Source: an uncultured Pelagibacteraceae bacterium (GTDB taxonomy: Bacteria; Pseudomonadota; Alphaproteobacteria; Pelagibacterales; Pelagibacteraceae). From it: a stretch of DNA of 63,712 nt. The translations under genes were made by a program, and so were the position numbers. Shown piece by piece: positions 39,634 through 46,770 of the stretch. Where the stretch lies: positions 1 through 63,712 of the forward strand of contig CACPOX010000006.1 in assembly GCA_902635665.1 (NCBI GenBank), written 5' to 3'. The notes under the pieces were generated by a model that made no database searches, was not told the DNA's origin, and saw only the letters and a program-made list of their open reading frames with translations. Within the stretch, counting starts at the first letter, position 1; every line of letters starts with the position of its first letter.

Positions 39634-40517
39634 GGAAACCACAATTAATTGATTATTTGTTATTAACTTTATTATCATTAATATGGGCGTCAGCTTTTTT
39701 TAATATAAAAATTGCCACATATTCATTTGGACCTATCACAATAGGTTTTTTAAGATCTTTTTTAGGCGCTATACCAGTTTTAATTTTATGTTTTTATAAA
39801 AATATAAGAATTGAAGCATTTTCAAAAGATTGGAAGTGGTTTGCAATTATAGGATTGGTAAATTTAGTTATTCCATTCATACTTATATCTTATGGAGTAA
39901 ATTTTGTTCAAAGTAATTTAGCAGCTATTTTGATGTCTACAACACCATTAAGTTCAACTGTTTTAGCTCACTTCTTTTTAAAAGGAGAAAAATTTAATCT
40001 CTTAAAAACTATTGGATTGTTAATAGGGTTTTCAGGAATAGTTTTTTTATTTTCAGATAATTTTTTAATTAATGAAAATAACTTTGTTGCTGCACTTTTA
40101 ATTCTGCTAGGATCTACTTGTTATGTAATTGGGGGAGTAATAACCTTAAAAATAAGTAACAAAGAAAACGAAAATGTTACAGGTTCAATTTTAATTTGGT
40201 CAACAATTATACTTTTTCCATTCACTTTAATTTTTGAAAAACCTTGGATGTTAAATCCTTCAATGGACTCAATTATATCTGTAATATATTTAGGAATTTT
40301 TCCTACAGGAGTAGCATGGTTGTTGAGATTTAGAATTTTAAAAACAAATGGTCTTATATTTCATTCACAAGTTTCATATATTATTCCAATATTTGGAATT
40401 ATTTTAGGATACATATTTCTCAATGAAATAATTACCTCAAAAATTATAGTTGCATTAATTGCTGTATTTATTGGAATATATTTAGCAAGAAAAGCAGATT
40501 ATAAAAATATTACTTAA
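39630..40517 (+). CDS. EamA-family (DMT) membrane transporter
   Basis: A ten-helix inner-membrane carrier made of two EamA repeats of about 140 residues each. Typical segments are LSLIWASAFFNIKIA in the first helix, GPITIGFLRSFLGAIPV, and in the second half GIFPTGVAWLLRFRIL. The length is 295 residues. Members of this family export amino acids or other metabolites; the substrate here is unknown. It converges on the homocysteine methyltransferase gene with an 8-base overlap. Confidence 0.88.
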   Translation: MRKPQLIDYLLLTLLSLIWASAFFNIKIATYSFGPITIGFLRSFLGAIPVLILCFYKNIRIEAFSKDWKWFAIIGLVNLVIPFILISYGVNFVQSNLAAILMSTTPLSSTVLAHFFLKGEKFNLLKTIGLLIGFSGIVFLFSDNFLINENNFVAALLILLGSTCYVIGGVITLKISNKENENVTGSILIWSTIILFPFTLIFEKPWMLNPSMDSIISVIYLGIFPTGVAWLLRFRILKTNGLIFHSQVSYIIPIFGIILGYIFLNEIITSKIIVALIAVFIGIYLARKADYKNIT

Positions 40518-41412
40518 GCTTTGCCATTGCCGCAATATGAGCAGGGCCAGTTTCACAACAACCTCCAATAATAGAAGCGCCTGATTGTTTAAACTTTTTT
40601 GATATTTCAAAAATTTTATTTGGAGTTAAATCTTTTCTTCGACCTAAAAATTCATTTGGATTACCATTTGATTTCAAGTAACTGGCTTTGTATCCATCTT
40701 TAGATTTTGTAGTTATAAACCCATTTAATTTAAAACCAAAAGGTACATTTAATTCTTTTAATTCTTTAAGATTTTTCTCATAATTTTCTGGCGAAACACA
40801 AGACAACATTACTCCTAAAGCATTGTGATCAATAATACTCTTTATGTCTGAAATTTTTTCACCACTTGGTAAATTACATCCCTCAGAAATATGCATCCCA
40901 ATTAGATAGGGTTTTTTAAATTCTTTAATTGCATCAATACCACATTTAAATTCCTGGATACTGCTCCAAACATCGAAGTAAAAAAAATCAATATAAGGGT
41001 TTAATAATCGAGCTTGTTCATTAAAATTTTCAGTTATTTCTTCCTTAGATCTATCATCTGGTTCGTAGGTATTATTTTGAGGTGGTAATCCCGCAGCAAT
41101 TAAAACATCCGGGAATTTTTGTTTCACTTCAATAGCAATTTCACCAGCTTTTTTATTTAGATATTCAAATTTATCCTCAACATTATTATCTCTTAATCTA
41201 TTTCGTCTAGTAGTAAAAGTTGCAGTAACAATTACTTCTGCCCCTGCTTTTATAAAATCTAAATGAGTATCCAATAATAGTTTATGATAATCAGGATTTA
41301 TAATTGCATTAGCGCTCCATAAAGTACCATTTGGCTTCATTCCTCTTGCCAAAAGTTCTTGACCCATACCACCATCCAAAATTCTAGTTTTTTTAAAAAA
41401 ATCTAAATCCAT
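40510..41412 (-). CDS. Homocysteine S-methyltransferase family protein
   Basis: Zinc-dependent methyltransferase that makes methionine from homocysteine. The barrel begins ILDGGMGQELLARGM. Zinc ligands are the Cys in GVMLSCVSPENY and the pair in IIGGCCETGPAHIAAM. There is no B12 or folate domain, so the donor is a small methylated compound such as S-methylmethionine, betaine or a sulfonium; the donor is not identifiable here. The length is 300 residues. A SAM-riboswitch-like leader precedes it, which fits feedback by the pathway end product. Confidence 0.88.
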   Translation of the reverse strand: MDLDFFKKTRILDGGMGQELLARGMKPNGTLWSANAIINPDYHKLLLDTHLDFIKAGAEVIVTATFTTRRNRLRDNNVEDKFEYLNKKAGEIAIEVKQKFPDVLIAAGLPPQNNTYEPDDRSKEEITENFNEQARLLNPYIDFFYFDVWSSIQEFKCGIDAIKEFKKPYLIGMHISEGCNLPSGEKISDIKSIIDHNALGVMLSCVSPENYEKNLKELKELNVPFGFKLNGFITTKSKDGYKASYLKSNGNPNEFLGRRKDLTPNKIFEISKKFKQSGASIIGGCCETGPAHIAAMAKLK

Positions 41413-41450
41413 TTTTTACAAAAGTTTTAATTATTCTATTTGATCTTTTT

Positions 41451-41500
41451 GAGAGTTCCATTTTAGCAGTATAAGCCCGCAATAGGATCAAATCGGCTCT
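41451..41500 (-). promoter_or_regulatory. SAM-II/SAM-V-like riboswitch leader
   Basis: Read on the minus strand, GAGCC (41499-41495) pairs with GGCTT (41477-41473) around the loop GATTTGATCCTATTGCG. The tail contains the conserved core GCTAAA (41467-41462), then TGGA, whose GGA can pair with TCC of the loop to form the pseudoknot. The order helix, loop with TATTGC, GCTAAA, and closing pseudoknot matches the SAM-II fold as I remember it; the related SAM-V class is reported from marine bacteria. The start codon is about 40 bases downstream. Confidence 0.75.
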
Positions 41501-41503
41501 ATC

Positions 41504-41531
41504 TTTATATCTTAAAAAAAATTTAATTCAA
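41504..41531 (-). promoter_or_regulatory. Promoter of the homocysteine methyltransferase gene
   Basis: On the minus strand TTGAAT (41531-41526) and TATAAA (41509-41504) are separated by 16 bases. Transcription would begin near 41498-41500, exactly at the 5' helix of the riboswitch-like leader, so the aptamer would form the very start of the message. Confidence 0.55.
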
Positions 41532-41533
41532 TG

Positions 41534-42280
41534 CTAAGATAATAATCTAATTCCCATCCTGATAGAAACAAAAATTACCAATAAGGAAGTGAGTAAAGCT
41601 AACACCTTATTAGATAAAAATTTTATATTTAAGAAACTTCCAATTTGTCCTCCAATAAAGACAATTAAAAATAATGGCCAATAATTTATTAGTTCATCTA
41701 AAACTCTATCTTTTGTTAGTTGGCCGGCAACACCAAAAATAGAATTAATTAATATAAAAAAAGAAGCACTACTAGTAATATGTTTTGGGTATCCAGCTTT
41801 TATCAAAAACAAAAGAGGACTTAAAAATATTCCTCCACCAATTCCCACTATTCCAGACATGAACCCAATTATAGATCCAATAGAAATTGAAATTATTTTA
41901 GGAATTTTATTAATTTTTATTTGATAATTATTGAAAGATTTACTCTCAATTAGCAAAAAAATACCTGCAATTAATAAAATACAAAACAACAAAATCTCAA
42001 ATAAACTTTTTTCTATTATTATTGATCCCCCAATAAATGCAAAAGGTATAGAGCCTATTAAATATGGGAAAAGTAAATTAAAATTAGTATTTTTGGTTCT
42101 TATAAAATTAATAGAATTACCAGATACAACAATTATATTGCATACTAGAGCAATAACAGGAAAAATTGTATAAGGCACACCCCATATTAAAAGTAATGCA
42201 AGATATGTTGAGCCACCACCAAATCCAACACTTGAGTATATTAAAGCAGTTACAAAAAAAAGAATTGATAATATAATCAT
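41534..42280 (-). CDS. TSUP family (TauE/SafE) membrane permease
   Basis: An inner-membrane carrier with about eight helices of the sulfite exporter TauE/SafE family. Repeated motifs SSVGFGGGSTYLALLLIWG near the N-terminus and SGIVGIGGGIFLSPLL in the middle are the two family repeats. The length of 248 residues is typical. It could export sulfite or a sulfonated or carboxylated compound; the neighbouring methionine gene hints at sulfur metabolism without proving it. It diverges from moaB with a 9-base gap. Confidence 0.87.
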   Translation of the reverse strand: MIILSILFFVTALIYSSVGFGGGSTYLALLLIWGVPYTIFPVIALVCNIIVVSGNSINFIRTKNTNFNLLFPYLIGSIPFAFIGGSIIIEKSLFEILLFCILLIAGIFLLIESKSFNNYQIKINKIPKIISISIGSIIGFMSGIVGIGGGIFLSPLLFLIKAGYPKHITSSASFFILINSIFGVAGQLTKDRVLDELINYWPLFLIVFIGGQIGSFLNIKFLSNKVLALLTSLLVIFVSIRMGIRLLS

Positions 42281-42289
42281 TTTTAAATT

Positions 42290-42790
42290 ATGAGTGTAAA
42301 TATAGCTTTATTAACTGTAACAGATACTAGAACATTTGATAATGATAAATCAGGTTCAATCTTGGTTGAAAAAATTAAAGAGGCTAAGCATAACTTAATT
42401 GATAGAAAAATTTGTAAAGATAATAAAGAGGATATTATAAAAATTTTAAAAGACTGGACCAATCAAAAAGAGATAGATGTCTTAATTACTACTGGAGGAA
42501 CAGGTCTTACAGGAAGAGATATAACTCCTGAAGCTATTGATGAAATTGCAGATAAACACATACCTGGATTTGGAGAGGTTTTTAGAACAATAAGTCTGAA
42601 AACGGTTGGAACATCTTCCATACAATCTAGAGCTTGTGCTGCTTTATCAAATGGAAAATATATATTTGCATTACCTGGTTCATCAGGCGGTGTAACTGAT
42701 GCATGGGATGAAATATTAAAGTATCAACTAGATATAAATCACAAACCATGTAATTTTGTAGAATTATTTCCTAGATTAAAAGAAAAATAA
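42290..42790 (+). CDS. moaB: Molybdopterin adenylyltransferase/MoaB-type protein
   Basis: MoaB/MogA-fold protein of molybdenum cofactor synthesis that adenylylates molybdopterin. It shows LLTVTDTRTFDNDKSG, TTGGTGLTGRDITPEAI and ALPGSSGGVTDAWDEIL. The length of 166 residues agrees with the MoaB form. It faces the moa-msr block on the other strand, separated only by the DUF1244 and msr genes. Confidence 0.9.
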   Translation: MSVNIALLTVTDTRTFDNDKSGSILVEKIKEAKHNLIDRKICKDNKEDIIKILKDWTNQKEIDVLITTGGTGLTGRDITPEAIDEIADKHIPGFGEVFRTISLKTVGTSSIQSRACAALSNGKYIFALPGSSGGVTDAWDEILKYQLDINHKPCNFVELFPRLKEK

Positions 42791-43036
42791 TTATTTTTGA
42801 TATTTTTCTTTCCACTCAGAGTAAGGCATTCCATATATATGCTTCCTTGCATCAGGATCTGAAATTTCTACTCCTTTTTTTTTTGCTTCTTCCCTATACC
42901 ACCTAGATAAACAGTTTCTGCAAAAACCAGCTAAATTCATCAGGTCAATATTTTGAACATCTTTTCTTTCGTCTAAATGTTTCATTAATCTCTCAAGAGT
43001 AGCTGATTGAATATCTTTTTTAAGGATCTCATCCAT
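42791..43036 (-). CDS. DUF1244 small cysteine-containing protein
   Basis: A conserved 81-residue protein of unknown function. The core FCRNCLSRWYREEAKKKG carries a CxxC pair, and the end DPDARKHIYGMPYSEWKEK is highly characteristic of DUF1244. The cysteine pair could bind a metal. It overlaps msrQ by 8 bases, so it is cotranscribed with the methionine sulfoxide reductase genes. Confidence 0.85.
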   Translation of the reverse strand: MDEILKKDIQSATLERLMKHLDERKDVQNIDLMNLAGFCRNCLSRWYREEAKKKGVEISDPDARKHIYGMPYSEWKEKYQK

Positions 43037-43613
43037 AATTCACATCTCTATTTTTAATTTTTATTCTTAATGCCAATAACACTATTATTATTATTAAGTA
43101 TATTAAAGGCTTAAAAAAAATTGTTTTTGATAACCATATATAATGAAGAGAACCAAAAATAGCTATTACATAAACTAATCTATGTAGTTTTTTCCAATTA
43201 TTTTTAAGCAGCCTCACCATTTTTTTTGAAGAGGTAATTACTAAAGGAATTAGTAATATCCACGCAGCAAAACCAATGAATACATATTTTTTTTTTACAA
43301 CGTCATCAAATATTGGTTGCCAATTAAATCTATAATCTAATCCAACATAGGTTAACAAGTGAAGCGTGGCATAGAAAAAAACAAATAAACCTAGCATTCT
43401 TCTAAAATTTATCCATAGCGATAATTTAGTTAATTTTTTGAGTGGACTCATACTCAAAGTTAAACAAATAAAAATTAGTGTCCATTCTCCTGTAAAATGA
43501 GTAATTTCTTTTACAGGTTCAGGACCTAGTTTATTAAAAAAAATTTTATAAGTGATGATCAGAAATGGTACTAAGCTTAGAACAAAAATACTTGGCTTCA
43601 AATATTTTGTCAT
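43029..43613 (-). CDS. msrQ: Heme-binding membrane subunit MsrQ (YedZ)
   Basis: Six-helix membrane cytochrome b that feeds quinone-derived electrons to MsrP. Histidines likely to bind heme are in ITHFTGEWTLIF, FYATLHLLTYVG, and LHRLVYV/LHYIW near residues 140-155. The length is 194 residues. It overlaps the msrP stop by one base; MsrPQ together repair oxidised methionine in periplasmic proteins. Confidence 0.9.
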   Translation of the reverse strand: MTKYLKPSIFVLSLVPFLIITYKIFFNKLGPEPVKEITHFTGEWTLIFICLTLSMSPLKKLTKLSLWINFRRMLGLFVFFYATLHLLTYVGLDYRFNWQPIFDDVVKKKYVFIGFAAWILLIPLVITSSKKMVRLLKNNWKKLHRLVYVIAIFGSLHYIWLSKTIFFKPLIYLIIIIVLLALRIKIKNRDVNYG

Positions 43614-44524
43614 TAAAAATATTTTTTTAAATCCATACCAGAATATAAACTTGCTACTTCATCTCCGTAACCATTAAACATAGTTGTTGGAATTCTTGGA
43701 CTGATTATACCTTCACCAATAACCCTTTCTGTTGCTTGGGACCATCTAGGATGATCAACTGTTGGATTTACATTAGAATAAAAACCATACTCTTTTGGAG
43801 AAGCTTTCATCCATGAGGAGGTGGGCATTTTTTCAACTAATTTTATATTCACTATTGCTTTGGCACTTTTAAATCCATATTTCCAAGGAACCATCAATCT
43901 TAAAGGTGAACCATTTTGATTTGGTAATTTTTTTCCATATAACCCAGTAACCAATATAGTCAGATCATGCATCGCCTCATCTATTCTTAGACCTTCTTTA
44001 TATGGCCAATCTAAAATTGGAAATCTTTGTCCAATCATTTGTTCTGGATCTAGTATAGAAACAAATTTAACAAATTTTGCCTTACTGGTTGGTGAAACTT
44101 TGTTTAAAATCTTATTTAAAGGAAATCCAAGCCAAGGAATAACCATTGACCACCCCTCAACGCATCTCAATTTATAAATTCTTTCCTCAGAAGGGAACAT
44201 TGTATTTATTTCTTCAATAGATAGTTTTAAAGGATTTTCTACTTCTCCATCTATTATTACATCCCATGGTGTAGTTTTAAATTTTTCTGATCTTTCAACT
44301 GGATCAGACTTACCTGTGCCAAATTCATAATAATTATTATAAGTTGTTATGTACCTATACTCTGTTAATTTTAAATCTTCTTTCTTTGGGGCTGCATTTG
44401 CAGAAAAATTTAAATTTTGGCTTAAAAAAATAGAACCTGCTGTAAGTCCAAATTTTTTAATAAAGTTTCTCCTATTTTTATAAATATTTTCCGGAGTTAT
44501 CTCTGAATATTTAATTTTTTTCAT
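43613..44524 (-). CDS. msrP: Periplasmic methionine sulfoxide reductase, molybdenum subunit MsrP (YedY)
   Basis: Molybdopterin enzyme that reduces methionine sulfoxide in exported proteins. A twin-arginine signal is visible (NRRNFIKKFGLTAGSIFL, residues 17-34). The Mo-ligand Cys lies in YKLRCVEGWSMVIPW. The region GSPLRLMVPWKYGFKSAK is typical of YedY. The length is 303 residues. It overlaps moaE by 14 bases, linking the enzyme to its cofactor genes. Confidence 0.93.
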   Translation of the reverse strand: MKKIKYSEITPENIYKNRRNFIKKFGLTAGSIFLSQNLNFSANAAPKKEDLKLTEYRYITTYNNYYEFGTGKSDPVERSEKFKTTPWDVIIDGEVENPLKLSIEEINTMFPSEERIYKLRCVEGWSMVIPWLGFPLNKILNKVSPTSKAKFVKFVSILDPEQMIGQRFPILDWPYKEGLRIDEAMHDLTILVTGLYGKKLPNQNGSPLRLMVPWKYGFKSAKAIVNIKLVEKMPTSSWMKASPKEYGFYSNVNPTVDHPRWSQATERVIGEGIISPRIPTTMFNGYGDEVASLYSGMDLKKYF

Positions 44525-44963
44525 GAATGATAGGATTACCTTTCAACCAATCACTTTGGTTGTCTGTATAATGTTCTTTCTTCCATATTGGAGATCTTTT
44601 TTTAATTTCTTCGATTACATATCTTGATAAAAGATAAGCCTGATCACGATGTTTGCAAGCAATAGCAATAATTATACTTATTTCTCCTAAATTTAAATAA
44701 CCTTTGGCATGTTCAATAAAAACAGCTTTATTTTGAATATTTAGTTTTTTTTCTGTTTCCTCATAAATTTCTTTAAAACTTTTCAGTACTAGATCATCAT
44801 GACTGTCATATGTTATTCCTATAACACTTTTGTTATTATTTTGATTACGCACTGTTCCAGTAAAATAAATTGAGGCACCATAATCAGATGATGAAATAAA
44901 TTCTTCAGCTTCTTTTAAAGATATTTTTTTTTCTTTAATGTCAATAATTTTTGTGTGAAGCAT
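44511..44963 (-). CDS. moaE: Molybdopterin synthase catalytic subunit MoaE
   Basis: Inserts the dithiolene sulfurs into precursor Z, using MoaD thiocarboxylate. It shows DYGASIYFTGTVRNQN, EHAKGYLNLGEISIIIA, HRDQAYLLSRYVIEEIK and the active-site lysine region PIWKKEHY. The length of 150 residues is normal. It shares one base with the moaD stop. Confidence 0.94.
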   Translation of the reverse strand: MLHTKIIDIKEKKISLKEAEEFISSSDYGASIYFTGTVRNQNNNKSVIGITYDSHDDLVLKSFKEIYEETEKKLNIQNKAVFIEHAKGYLNLGEISIIIAIACKHRDQAYLLSRYVIEEIKKRSPIWKKEHYTDNQSDWLKGNPIIHEKN

Positions 44964-45232
44964 TAACCTCCTCCGATAGGGGGTATAATACCAATTTTTT
45001 CATTTTCTGTTATTTTATAATTGTCGCTTACTATTTTATTATCTTGAGAGCAAAAAGCAGATGATTTAACAATTTTTTTATAATTTTCATTTCCACTAAA
45101 ATTTTGATCAAGGTATTTCATCATTTCTTCTCTAATATCTTTTATTTTAATATTATTACTAACATTAAACTCAATTAAGTTATTTTTACTAAATTCTCGA
45201 CTGGCACCAAAAAGTTCAATTTTAACTTTCAT
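44963..45232 (-). CDS. moaD: Molybdopterin synthase sulfur carrier MoaD
   Basis: Ubiquitin-like carrier whose C-terminal Gly-Gly is thiocarboxylated. The product begins MKVKIELFGASREFSKNN and ends IGIIPPIGGG, with the diagnostic GG. The length of 89 residues is normal. It lies directly after moaC. Confidence 0.93.
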   Translation of the reverse strand: MKVKIELFGASREFSKNNLIEFNVSNNIKIKDIREEMMKYLDQNFSGNENYKKIVKSSAFCSQDNKIVSDNYKITENEKIGIIPPIGGG

Positions 45233-45775
45233 TTAAAATAATTCTTTTAAAAAATTCGGAATACCTTCTGGATTTTTCCATAAACCGCTTTTTCCGCCTT
45301 CTTTAATTAAGAGTTTAATATTATCAATTTTAAGATTAGCATTTACTATTTTACTTAAATCATAAATTGTTATGAGAGCAGCATTAACACCCATAATTGC
45401 CTCCATTTCTACCCCGGTTTTAGAGTAAGTAGAAACAACACAAAATACTTCTATTGAATTATCATCTTCATTCATAACTATTTTAGTTGCAGTATGATCA
45501 ATTGGTAATGGGTGACACAAAGGAATCAATTCGCTTGTTTTTTTTACCCCTAAAACCGAAGCTACCTCTGCTAATATCAAAGGGTCACCTTTTGGCATTT
45601 CTTTATTTTTAATTAAATTAAAAACCTCTTCCCCAACAAATATTTTACCTGAAGCCAATGCCCTTCTAAAAGTTTCTTTTTTGGAAGAAATATCAATCAT
45701 ATTAAAAGAACTATCTTTAAATATTTCTTTAGCCCAGTCCTTTAGTTCTTTATTATTAATCAATTTAAGTTTCAA
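45233..45775 (-). CDS. moaC: Cyclic pyranopterin monophosphate synthase MoaC
   Basis: Converts the MoaA product to cyclic pyranopterin monophosphate. It shows LIPLCHPLPIDHTA, and GVEMEAIMGVNAALITIYDL, which contain catalytic residues, and IKLLIKEGGKSG at the end. The length is 180 residues. It is shorter than some at the N-terminus but contains the whole core. It follows moaA by 2 bases. Confidence 0.94.
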   Translation of the reverse strand: MKLKLINNKELKDWAKEIFKDSSFNMIDISSKKETFRRALASGKIFVGEEVFNLIKNKEMPKGDPLILAEVASVLGVKKTSELIPLCHPLPIDHTATKIVMNEDDNSIEVFCVVSTYSKTGVEMEAIMGVNAALITIYDLSKIVNANLKIDNIKLLIKEGGKSGLWKNPEGIPNFLKELF

Positions 45776-45777
45776 AA

Positions 45778-46770
45778 TTATCCTCCAGTTTTTGACAGAT
45801 TTTTTGTTGATCCAGTATCACCCAATTCTAAATGATGAGACTCTTTTTTAAATTTCATTTGTTTTAGTATTAAGTCTTTTAATTCATTTAATTGATCATC
45901 TTCTTGTAATAGATGCCTTAAATTTATTCCTGTATTACCAAACAAACAGAGTCTTAAATCACCTCTTGAAGTAATTCTTAATCTGTTACATGATTTACAA
46001 AAATCTTTTGAGTATGGAGCAATGATACCAAATTTACCCTTAAAATTTGGATTTATATAATTTAAAGCTGGCCCCGCATCCTTGCCAAAGGTTTGATAAA
46101 TCCAATTGTTTTCATTTAAGTATTCTTTAAATGTATTTGACGAGACGTGATATTTTTTAAAATAATCCAAATTATCACCAGTCCTCATTAATTCTATATA
46201 TCTAAAATCAACTTTATTTTTTTTAATATATTTTGCCCAAGTATTAAAATCATTTATTGATGAATTTACTCCATTCAAAAGTACGGCATTAATTTTAATG
46301 TTTTCAAAACCTAAGTTTTGTAAATTTTCTATCCCATGTAAAATTTCTGGCAACCTATCATGACCAGTAATATTTTTAAAAGTTTCTTTATTTAAACTGT
46401 CAATACTTATATTTATTCCAGTAAGTCCACTACTAACAAACTGTTCTGCTTTTTTATCCAATTTGTAGCCGTTAGTTGTAATCGTTACATTTTGAATACC
46501 AGCTTCAAATTTTAAAACTTTTATGATATCAAAAAAATCTTTTCTTATTGTTGGCTCACCACCTGTAATTCTGATCTTATTTACACCAAGCTCATAAAAA
46601 CATTTTGCAAGTCGCTTTATTTCATCTAAATGAAGAAATTTTCTTTTATCGCTTTTCTCTATTTGATATCCATTAGGTAAACAATACCCGCATTTAAAAT
46701 TACATACATCAGAAATTGATAATCTAATGTATGGAAATGTTCTACCAAAGCTATCTTTAAGAATATTCAT
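45778..46770 (-). CDS. moaA: GTP 3',8-cyclase MoaA
   Basis: Radical SAM enzyme that starts molybdenum cofactor synthesis from GTP. The N-terminal cluster motif is SDVCNFKCGYC, the SAM-binding region RITGGEPTIRKD, and the second [4Fe-4S] site is FCKSCNRLRITSRGDLRLC. The C-terminus ends with the required GG. The length of 330 residues is normal. It is first of moaA-moaC-moaD-moaE-msrP-msrQ and diverges from a dioxygenase gene with a 27-base gap. Confidence 0.96.
   Translation of the reverse strand: MNILKDSFGRTFPYIRLSISDVCNFKCGYCLPNGYQIEKSDKRKFLHLDEIKRLAKCFYELGVNKIRITGGEPTIRKDFFDIIKVLKFEAGIQNVTITTNGYKLDKKAEQFVSSGLTGINISIDSLNKETFKNITGHDRLPEILHGIENLQNLGFENIKINAVLLNGVNSSINDFNTWAKYIKKNKVDFRYIELMRTGDNLDYFKKYHVSSNTFKEYLNENNWIYQTFGKDAGPALNYINPNFKGKFGIIAPYSKDFCKSCNRLRITSRGDLRLCLFGNTGINLRHLLQEDDQLNELKDLILKQMKFKKESHHLELGDTGSTKNLSKTGG

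Follow-up and report, generated by a model that had tools for sequence, protein, structure and literature searches.

The mmuM locus and its leader

The window, i.e., the whole stretch of 63,712 nucleotides analysed here from an uncultured Pelagibacteraceae bacterium (host genus Pelagibacter, by inference), carries on its minus strand an mmuM-type gene separated from the permease gene upstream of it by an intergenic stretch of 121 bases, which is the site of the aptamer. The features of this region are as follows.

41534–42280, minus strand: TauE-family permease gene, upstream of mmuM (PF01925, E = 1.6e-29)
41526–41531, minus strand: −35-like box TTGAAT, at a position matching the −35-like TTGAAA/TTTACA of aligned upstream regions (98 metY, 51 mmuM)
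41504–41509, minus strand: −10 box TATAAA, at the same aptamer distance in metY and mmuM profiles
41457–41498, minus strand: mini-SAM-II aptamer (covariance model R1, 65.9 bits)
41495–41497, minus strand: P1 5′ strand GCC, partner of GGC at 41477–41475 (three supported pairs, 131 leaders)
41479–41494, minus strand: GATTTGATCC (41494–41485) and TATTGC (41484–41479), putative SAM-binding strand and pseudoknot 5′ strand, by analogy with SAM-II
41475–41477, minus strand: P1 3′ strand GGC (same 131 leaders; two further outer pairs annotated earlier are not conserved)
41457–41467, minus strand: GCTAAAATGGA, pseudoknot 3′ strand (pairs in 62 of 62 rows; found in 157 Pelagibacter loci although outside the search pattern)
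41438–41445, minus strand: GATCAAAT, proposed anti-aptamer, perfect complement of ATTTGATC at 41493–41486 (window shuffles and predicted ligand-free fold)
40510–41412, minus strand: mmuM-type homocysteine S-methyltransferase gene, 300 aa (PF02574, E = 2.2e-52)

From 5′ to 3′, the leader reads TTGAAT, 16 nt, TATAAA, GAGCC-GATTTGATCC-TATTGC-G-GGCTT-ATACT-GCTAAAATGGA, a 44-nt linker and ATG. The first-pass annotation had proposed that a homocysteine methyltransferase gene is preceded here by a leader resembling a SAM riboswitch, and this is still the best reading. All the parts that it named (GAGCC/GGCTT, GATTTGA, TATTGC, GCTAAA and TCC/GGA) are present on the minus strand in the order claimed, and TCC (41487–41485) is able to pair with GGA (41459–41457). 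The mmuM product is 95–96% identical to the protein of uncultured Pelagibacteraceae bacterium AG-447-E19 and shows 71% identity with the ortholog of genome G026, which we take as P. ubique HTCC1062. By the former match, the source organism is a relative of SAR11.

Note that a 22-codon reading frame (41393–41461, minus strand) has its ATG within the aptamer 3′ strand and runs into the beginning of mmuM in another frame; we consider it a probable accident, because this ATG is ACG in the close relative L176. By eye, frames at 42290–46770 look like genes for the molybdenum cofactor and for a pair of methionine sulfoxide reductases. In L020 and L022, two loci of other genera, mmuM seems by eye to stand directly after the end of a TauE-like gene with no leader; an ancient tauE-mmuM pair may have received its leader by insertion.

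Detection and class of the aptamer

The covariance model R1, built from 62 distinct related leaders with none from the window, scored 65.9 bits on the window, with an E-value of 2.9e-14 over the whole genome (1.10 Mb, 37 contigs) and of 4.2e-15 in a search of 17 sources. Since R1 was built without the window and still gives E = 2.9e-14, the aptamer is beyond chance. In the same genome, R1 found a second copy before a metY-like gene (68.2 bits, contig C2), and the next unrelated match had an E-value of 0.46. This second copy (114030–114156 on C2), the only other mini element of the genome, is in tandem with a SAM-V aptamer (81 bits).

The Rfam models for SAM-II and SAM-V, which the first-pass annotation had proposed as a check, left the window without a match: a scan at gathering and permissive thresholds up to E = 10 gave no SAM-II (RF00521, RF01726) or SAM-V match in the window, and a whole-genome search with RF00521, in which 150 of 241 candidates were scored, did not list the window. 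The best Rfam match of the window was the pan motif, with 19.2 bits for a cut-off of 36.2, which we took as chance. The window aptamer stays below the Rfam cut-off for the SAM-II class (RF00521, RF01726), which is a working criterion and not a chemical one, and the Rfam models also miss the same element elsewhere: at the gathering score they overlook it in 8 of 8 other loci, and a limit of E ≤ 0.01 leaves it out in 4 of 4. The conservation in related genomes was, in turn, borne out. What the window carries is a shortened SAM-II-class aptamer, one that goes unreported by the Rfam models. In L003 (1512–1571, minus strand), a locus on contig C11 of the same genome, a sub-threshold match to RF01726 (32.9 bits for a cut-off of 44) is possibly another divergent SAM-II.

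By its sequence, the element classifies as a SAM-II variant and not as SAM-V, because its core is that of SAM-II with a very short P1 and because a separate SAM-V lies downstream in 106 of the 110 same-genus copies listed. SAM-V was rejected as the class, since neither RF01826 nor our own SAM-V model R2 matched the window; on the whole genome, RF01826 listed the C2 copy at 114030 (81 bits) together with a single weak match on C4, and not the window. With SAM-II (metA motif; RF00521 and the long-loop RF01726) the element has in common one stem plus a pseudoknot, the GATTTGA..TATTGC..GCTAAAA..GG core, a promoter few bases before P1 and a methionine gene downstream (PF02574 in the window), but it differs by a P1 of three supported pairs, by the lack of an Rfam score and by a leader in which neither a terminator nor a masked Shine-Dalgarno was found. 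Beyond SAR11, too, R1 detects this core in loci of SAM-II type (e.g., L158, L134 and L081). SAM-V resembles the element as a small H-type pseudoknot with a related ligand-binding strand, and it precedes mmuM in relatives and in P. ubique. However, the usual distance of SAM-V from the start codon is at most ten nt (PMC2704228), whereas the window aptamer ends 44 nt before the ATG. Finally, the tandem SAM-II/SAM-V leader of P. ubique bhmT has the same order as the 106 listed same-genus tandems (SAM-II-type aptamer first, then SAM-V), but the window has neither SAM-V nor the terminator which, according to a 2022 review, always follows SAM-II in the known tandems (PMC9481103).

Anatomy of the aptamer and promoter

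The five-base helix of the first-pass annotation does form (GAGCC at 41499–41495 with GGCTT at 41477–41473, four Watson-Crick pairs and one G-U), but only its inner three pairs are supported. In 131 distinct leaders, P1 consists of two C-G pairs and a third pair that is G-C in 128 and A-T in 3, and none of 1000 shuffles pairs as well, while positions beyond these three pair no more often than shuffled ones. A longer P1 was rejected for this reason, and two of the five pairs of the window are probably accidental. The three P1 and seven P2 pairs form in all 62 related rows, and the window has all of them; as P2 is invariant across these rows, covariation supports only one P1 pair.

The promoter claimed for this leader fared differently according to the method: a simple scan of the window leader found no promoter-like site, but when 98 metY and 51 mmuM upstream regions were aligned at the aptamer, a −10-like box appeared at a constant site (−13 to −8, counted back from CC), occupied in the window by TATAAA, with a −35-like box at suitable spacing in the same 149 regions, a profile that the window fits. 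Because these boxes lie at a fixed distance, the transcript should begin at P1, with an expected start at about 41500–41497. For SAM-II, a promoter few bases before P1 was described by Corbino et al. (PMC1273637). The short P1 may be explained in the same way, because bases further out would not be transcribed.

Distribution and tandem leaders in the genus

Relatives were gathered by the 5′ half only (CCGATTTGATCC, 0–2 nt, ATTGC, one base, GG), a pattern found in 63 of 201 same-genus genomes and in at least 117 stretches of named genomes, with none in viral contigs. The 3′ half (GCTAAA..GG), which is not part of the pattern, follows in 157 loci of Pelagibacteraceae or same-genus genomes. From 179 distinct loci with the core pattern, the removal of 22 outside Pelagibacteraceae and of one tandem without an assigned gene left the 156 distinct leaders, i.e., 102 metY and 49 mmuM leaders in tandem with SAM-V and 5 mmuM leaders with the mini element alone (solo). 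When the best candidates in the 201 same-genus genomes were scored, R1 gave at least 110 mini elements in at least 82 genomes, and RF01826 at least 134 SAM-V aptamers in at least 99 genomes. The mini element lies 7–17 nt upstream of SAM-V in 106 of the 110 listed, the window being among the four without, and the remaining 28 SAM-V matches of those listed have no R1 match upstream.

G026 was equated with P. ubique HTCC1062 because its SAM-V sites coincide with three of the intergenic regions that Meyer et al. 2009 list, and mini elements were found in its mmuM region (732862–732904) and in the metY region (1005763–1005805). The table of that paper, in the part available, names only SAM-V at these two regions (PMC2704228), and the available text of PMC5069961 names SAM-II only for bhmT and metX. 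The G026 bhmT leader contains a terminator-like hairpin. Upstream of SAM-V, a GCTAAA core with a run of at least eight T was found in 27 of 27 loci from other genera or from this bhmT leader, 22 of which also contain a stretch able to pair with this core. Of the 151 metY/mmuM linkers of the window's genus, no more than 10 show as many as five T in a row, and the window leader is devoid of the long T run of other SAM-II/SAM-V leaders. Two loci of other genera (L224 and L226) combine a mini-like aptamer (36–42 bits with R1), a T run and SAM-V, and they may be intermediates between the terminator-type and the mini form. Outside SAR11, a SAR92-clade (gammaproteobacterial) locus (L072, 1443–1635) shows a tandem with a SAM-II-like core upstream of a SAM-V match of 41.2 bits, just over the cut-off.

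Linker complementarity and expression platform

Instead of a terminator, the short linkers of these leaders contain segments complementary to the aptamer 5′ strand, typically AATCGG against CCGATT in metY leaders and ATCAA(A)T against the ATTTGAT region in mmuM leaders. The mean duplex energy was −9.3 kcal/mol for metY linkers (n = 87; −8.4 for shuffled linkers) and −7.2 kcal/mol for mmuM linkers (n = 34; −4.9 for shuffled linkers). None of 200 shuffled-linker sets was as good as the real groups, which are made of related and not independent sequences, and dinucleotide-shuffled targets reached the group energies in 10 of 400 (metY) and 18 of 400 (mmuM) cases. Linker by linker, with contiguous helices and shuffled linkers, only 12 of 118 gave p ≤ 0.05. 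The window linker, entered in the duplex test as 36 of its 44 nt (ended at an earlier in-frame TTG), holds a perfect 8-base complement, which 4.6% of the shuffled linkers and 19.1% of the shuffled targets equal. Among the solo leaders, the proportion of linker shuffles as good was 0.046 for the window, 0.000 for L176, 0.041 for L145, 0.392 for L260 and 0.727 for L137, so that the last two show no significant complementarity. In addition, the predicted ligand-free fold of the window uses the GATCAAAT/ATTTGATC pairing. These results lend moderate statistical support to the ability of the window linker to pair with the SAM-binding strand. In the bhmT tandem, according to PMC11508383, the linker blocks SAM binding by the SAM-II half, and the linker complementarity fits such a block without proving it.

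No terminator was found in the window leader and no Shine-Dalgarno was seen by eye near the mmuM start; the terminator or masked ribosome-binding site that follows the aptamer in a complete SAM-II riboswitch was thus not found downstream in the window. Of the five solo leaders, four were folded (the window, L176, L260 and L145). In the window, the accessibility of the start site did not drop on blocking of the aptamer (0.49 with and without the block), and the start codon alone was rather more open with the aptamer blocked (0.46 against 0.62). Start-codon masking was rejected, as the mean accessibility of −15 to +15 does not fall in the window, L176 and L145 and falls slightly in L260 (0.48 to 0.45). 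A possible pairing of AAAAAGATCAAAT with codons 2–6 was seen by eye and given no weight, the sequence being AT-rich.

The solo state and its evolution

Among 399 same-genus genomes, 89 mmuM orthologs were retrieved by protein search at E ≤ 1e-130, and their upstream regions were searched with R1 and R2. The mini element was present in 52 of these regions, 47 with both aptamers and 5 with the mini element only; none had SAM-V only, and 37 had neither. The window is a rare solo copy, its exact layout being found in 2 of the 399 genomes. A protein tree was drawn for 50 of these 89 sequences; on it, the solo state requires four changes, which are forced by the starred branches and are read as SAM-V losses. 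Note that L291, a row without aptamers on the tree, has near-identical tandem neighbours, and its leader may be missing for assembly reasons; in L364 and L368, two of the five solo leaders, apparent remains of SAM-V were seen by eye. Most likely, the window leader descends from a tandem of mini-SAM-II and SAM-V by loss of SAM-V.

Proposed mechanism and alternatives

We consider it probable that the window leader is a 5′-terminal, 42-nt mini-SAM-II of tandem origin, working as a SAM-bound OFF switch of mmuM through an anti-aptamer in the linker. The aptamer and its conservation, the place of the promoter, the lack of SAM-V and the complementarity of the linker are observed; that SAM binds, that it turns mmuM off and that the anti-aptamer acts as its counterpart in the switch are what we infer. 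The mmuM transcript would open with a SAM-II-class aptamer of 42 nt with a three-pair P1. At low SAM, the linker GATCAAAT would pair with ATTTGATC of the SAM-binding strand and undo the aptamer, and when SAM is plentiful, the aptamer would form, the linker would be freed and mmuM expression would be lowered, as a feedback on methionine synthesis. We favour a switch in which the choice between aptamer and linker pairing would be made during transcription, with early termination, mRNA decay or translation as the possible output. Under sulfur limitation, the mmuM transcripts of P. ubique increase (PMC5069961), which fits an OFF switch.

Since no expression platform was found by searching the window leader, the element could also be a relic that, after the loss of SAM-V, may still bind SAM and no longer controls mmuM. 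The leader of the closest relative, which has the same solo form, does not settle this point, because its mmuM protein (95–96% identity) is too similar for the conservation to prove selection. However, solo elements keep R1 scores of 58–68 bits, inside the range of tandem mmuM leaders (40–72 bits), and whenever just one aptamer is missing, the missing one is SAM-V (SAM-V without the mini element in 0 of 47 cases), which argues against a mere relic although the four events on the tree are few. We regard this explanation as unlikely.

A translational switch, in which SAM binding would free the linker and thereby expose or hide the mmuM start region, in the manner of metX-type SAM-II or of SAM-V, also seems rather improbable. 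In translational SAM-II, the Shine-Dalgarno lies inside the aptamer 3′ strand (PMC5352136), and the window does carry GGA at that place, but this GGA ends 44 nt before the start codon, a start codon 4–12 nt past the aptamer GG occurs in only 2 of the 156 leaders, and folding showed no fall of accessibility. As for the ligand itself, MmuM-type enzymes can use S-methylmethionine as methyl donor, and a ligand other than SAM (e.g., S-methylmethionine or SAH) would be conceivable on this ground; we hold it to be very improbable, as the core has the letters of SAM-II and the same element stands before both metY and mmuM, for which SAM is the common end product.

Significance of the mini-SAM-II leaders

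Beyond the OFF switch, we tentatively suggest, as a possibility that we find somewhat doubtful, that in this genus the terminator-type SAM-II half of the tandem leader became a self-sufficient 5′-terminal mini-aptamer of 42 nt, with the linker as its sole partner and with neither terminator nor Shine-Dalgarno masking. SAM-V would have been lost four times in mmuM leaders and the mini unit kept, the output of which might be, for instance, early elongation, Rho or mRNA decay. If true, this would represent an expression platform of a new kind, one not listed for the SAM-V leaders that have been studied best (P. ubique metY and mmuM). The available parts of the literature searched contain no SAM-II without terminator before metY or mmuM in Pelagibacter; Poiata et al. 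2009, beyond this search, may mention one.

In the metY and mmuM leaders from which SAM-V is known, another aptamer, of SAM-II type, appears to stand ahead of it, which the available parts of those descriptions do not list, and the sulfur-limitation data obtained from these leaders may therefore be read differently. The solo leaders are natural deletion experiments in which the mini unit stands by itself, so that its function becomes open to direct tests, and they bear on the puzzle of the seemingly silent SAM-II half in the bhmT tandem (PMC11508383).
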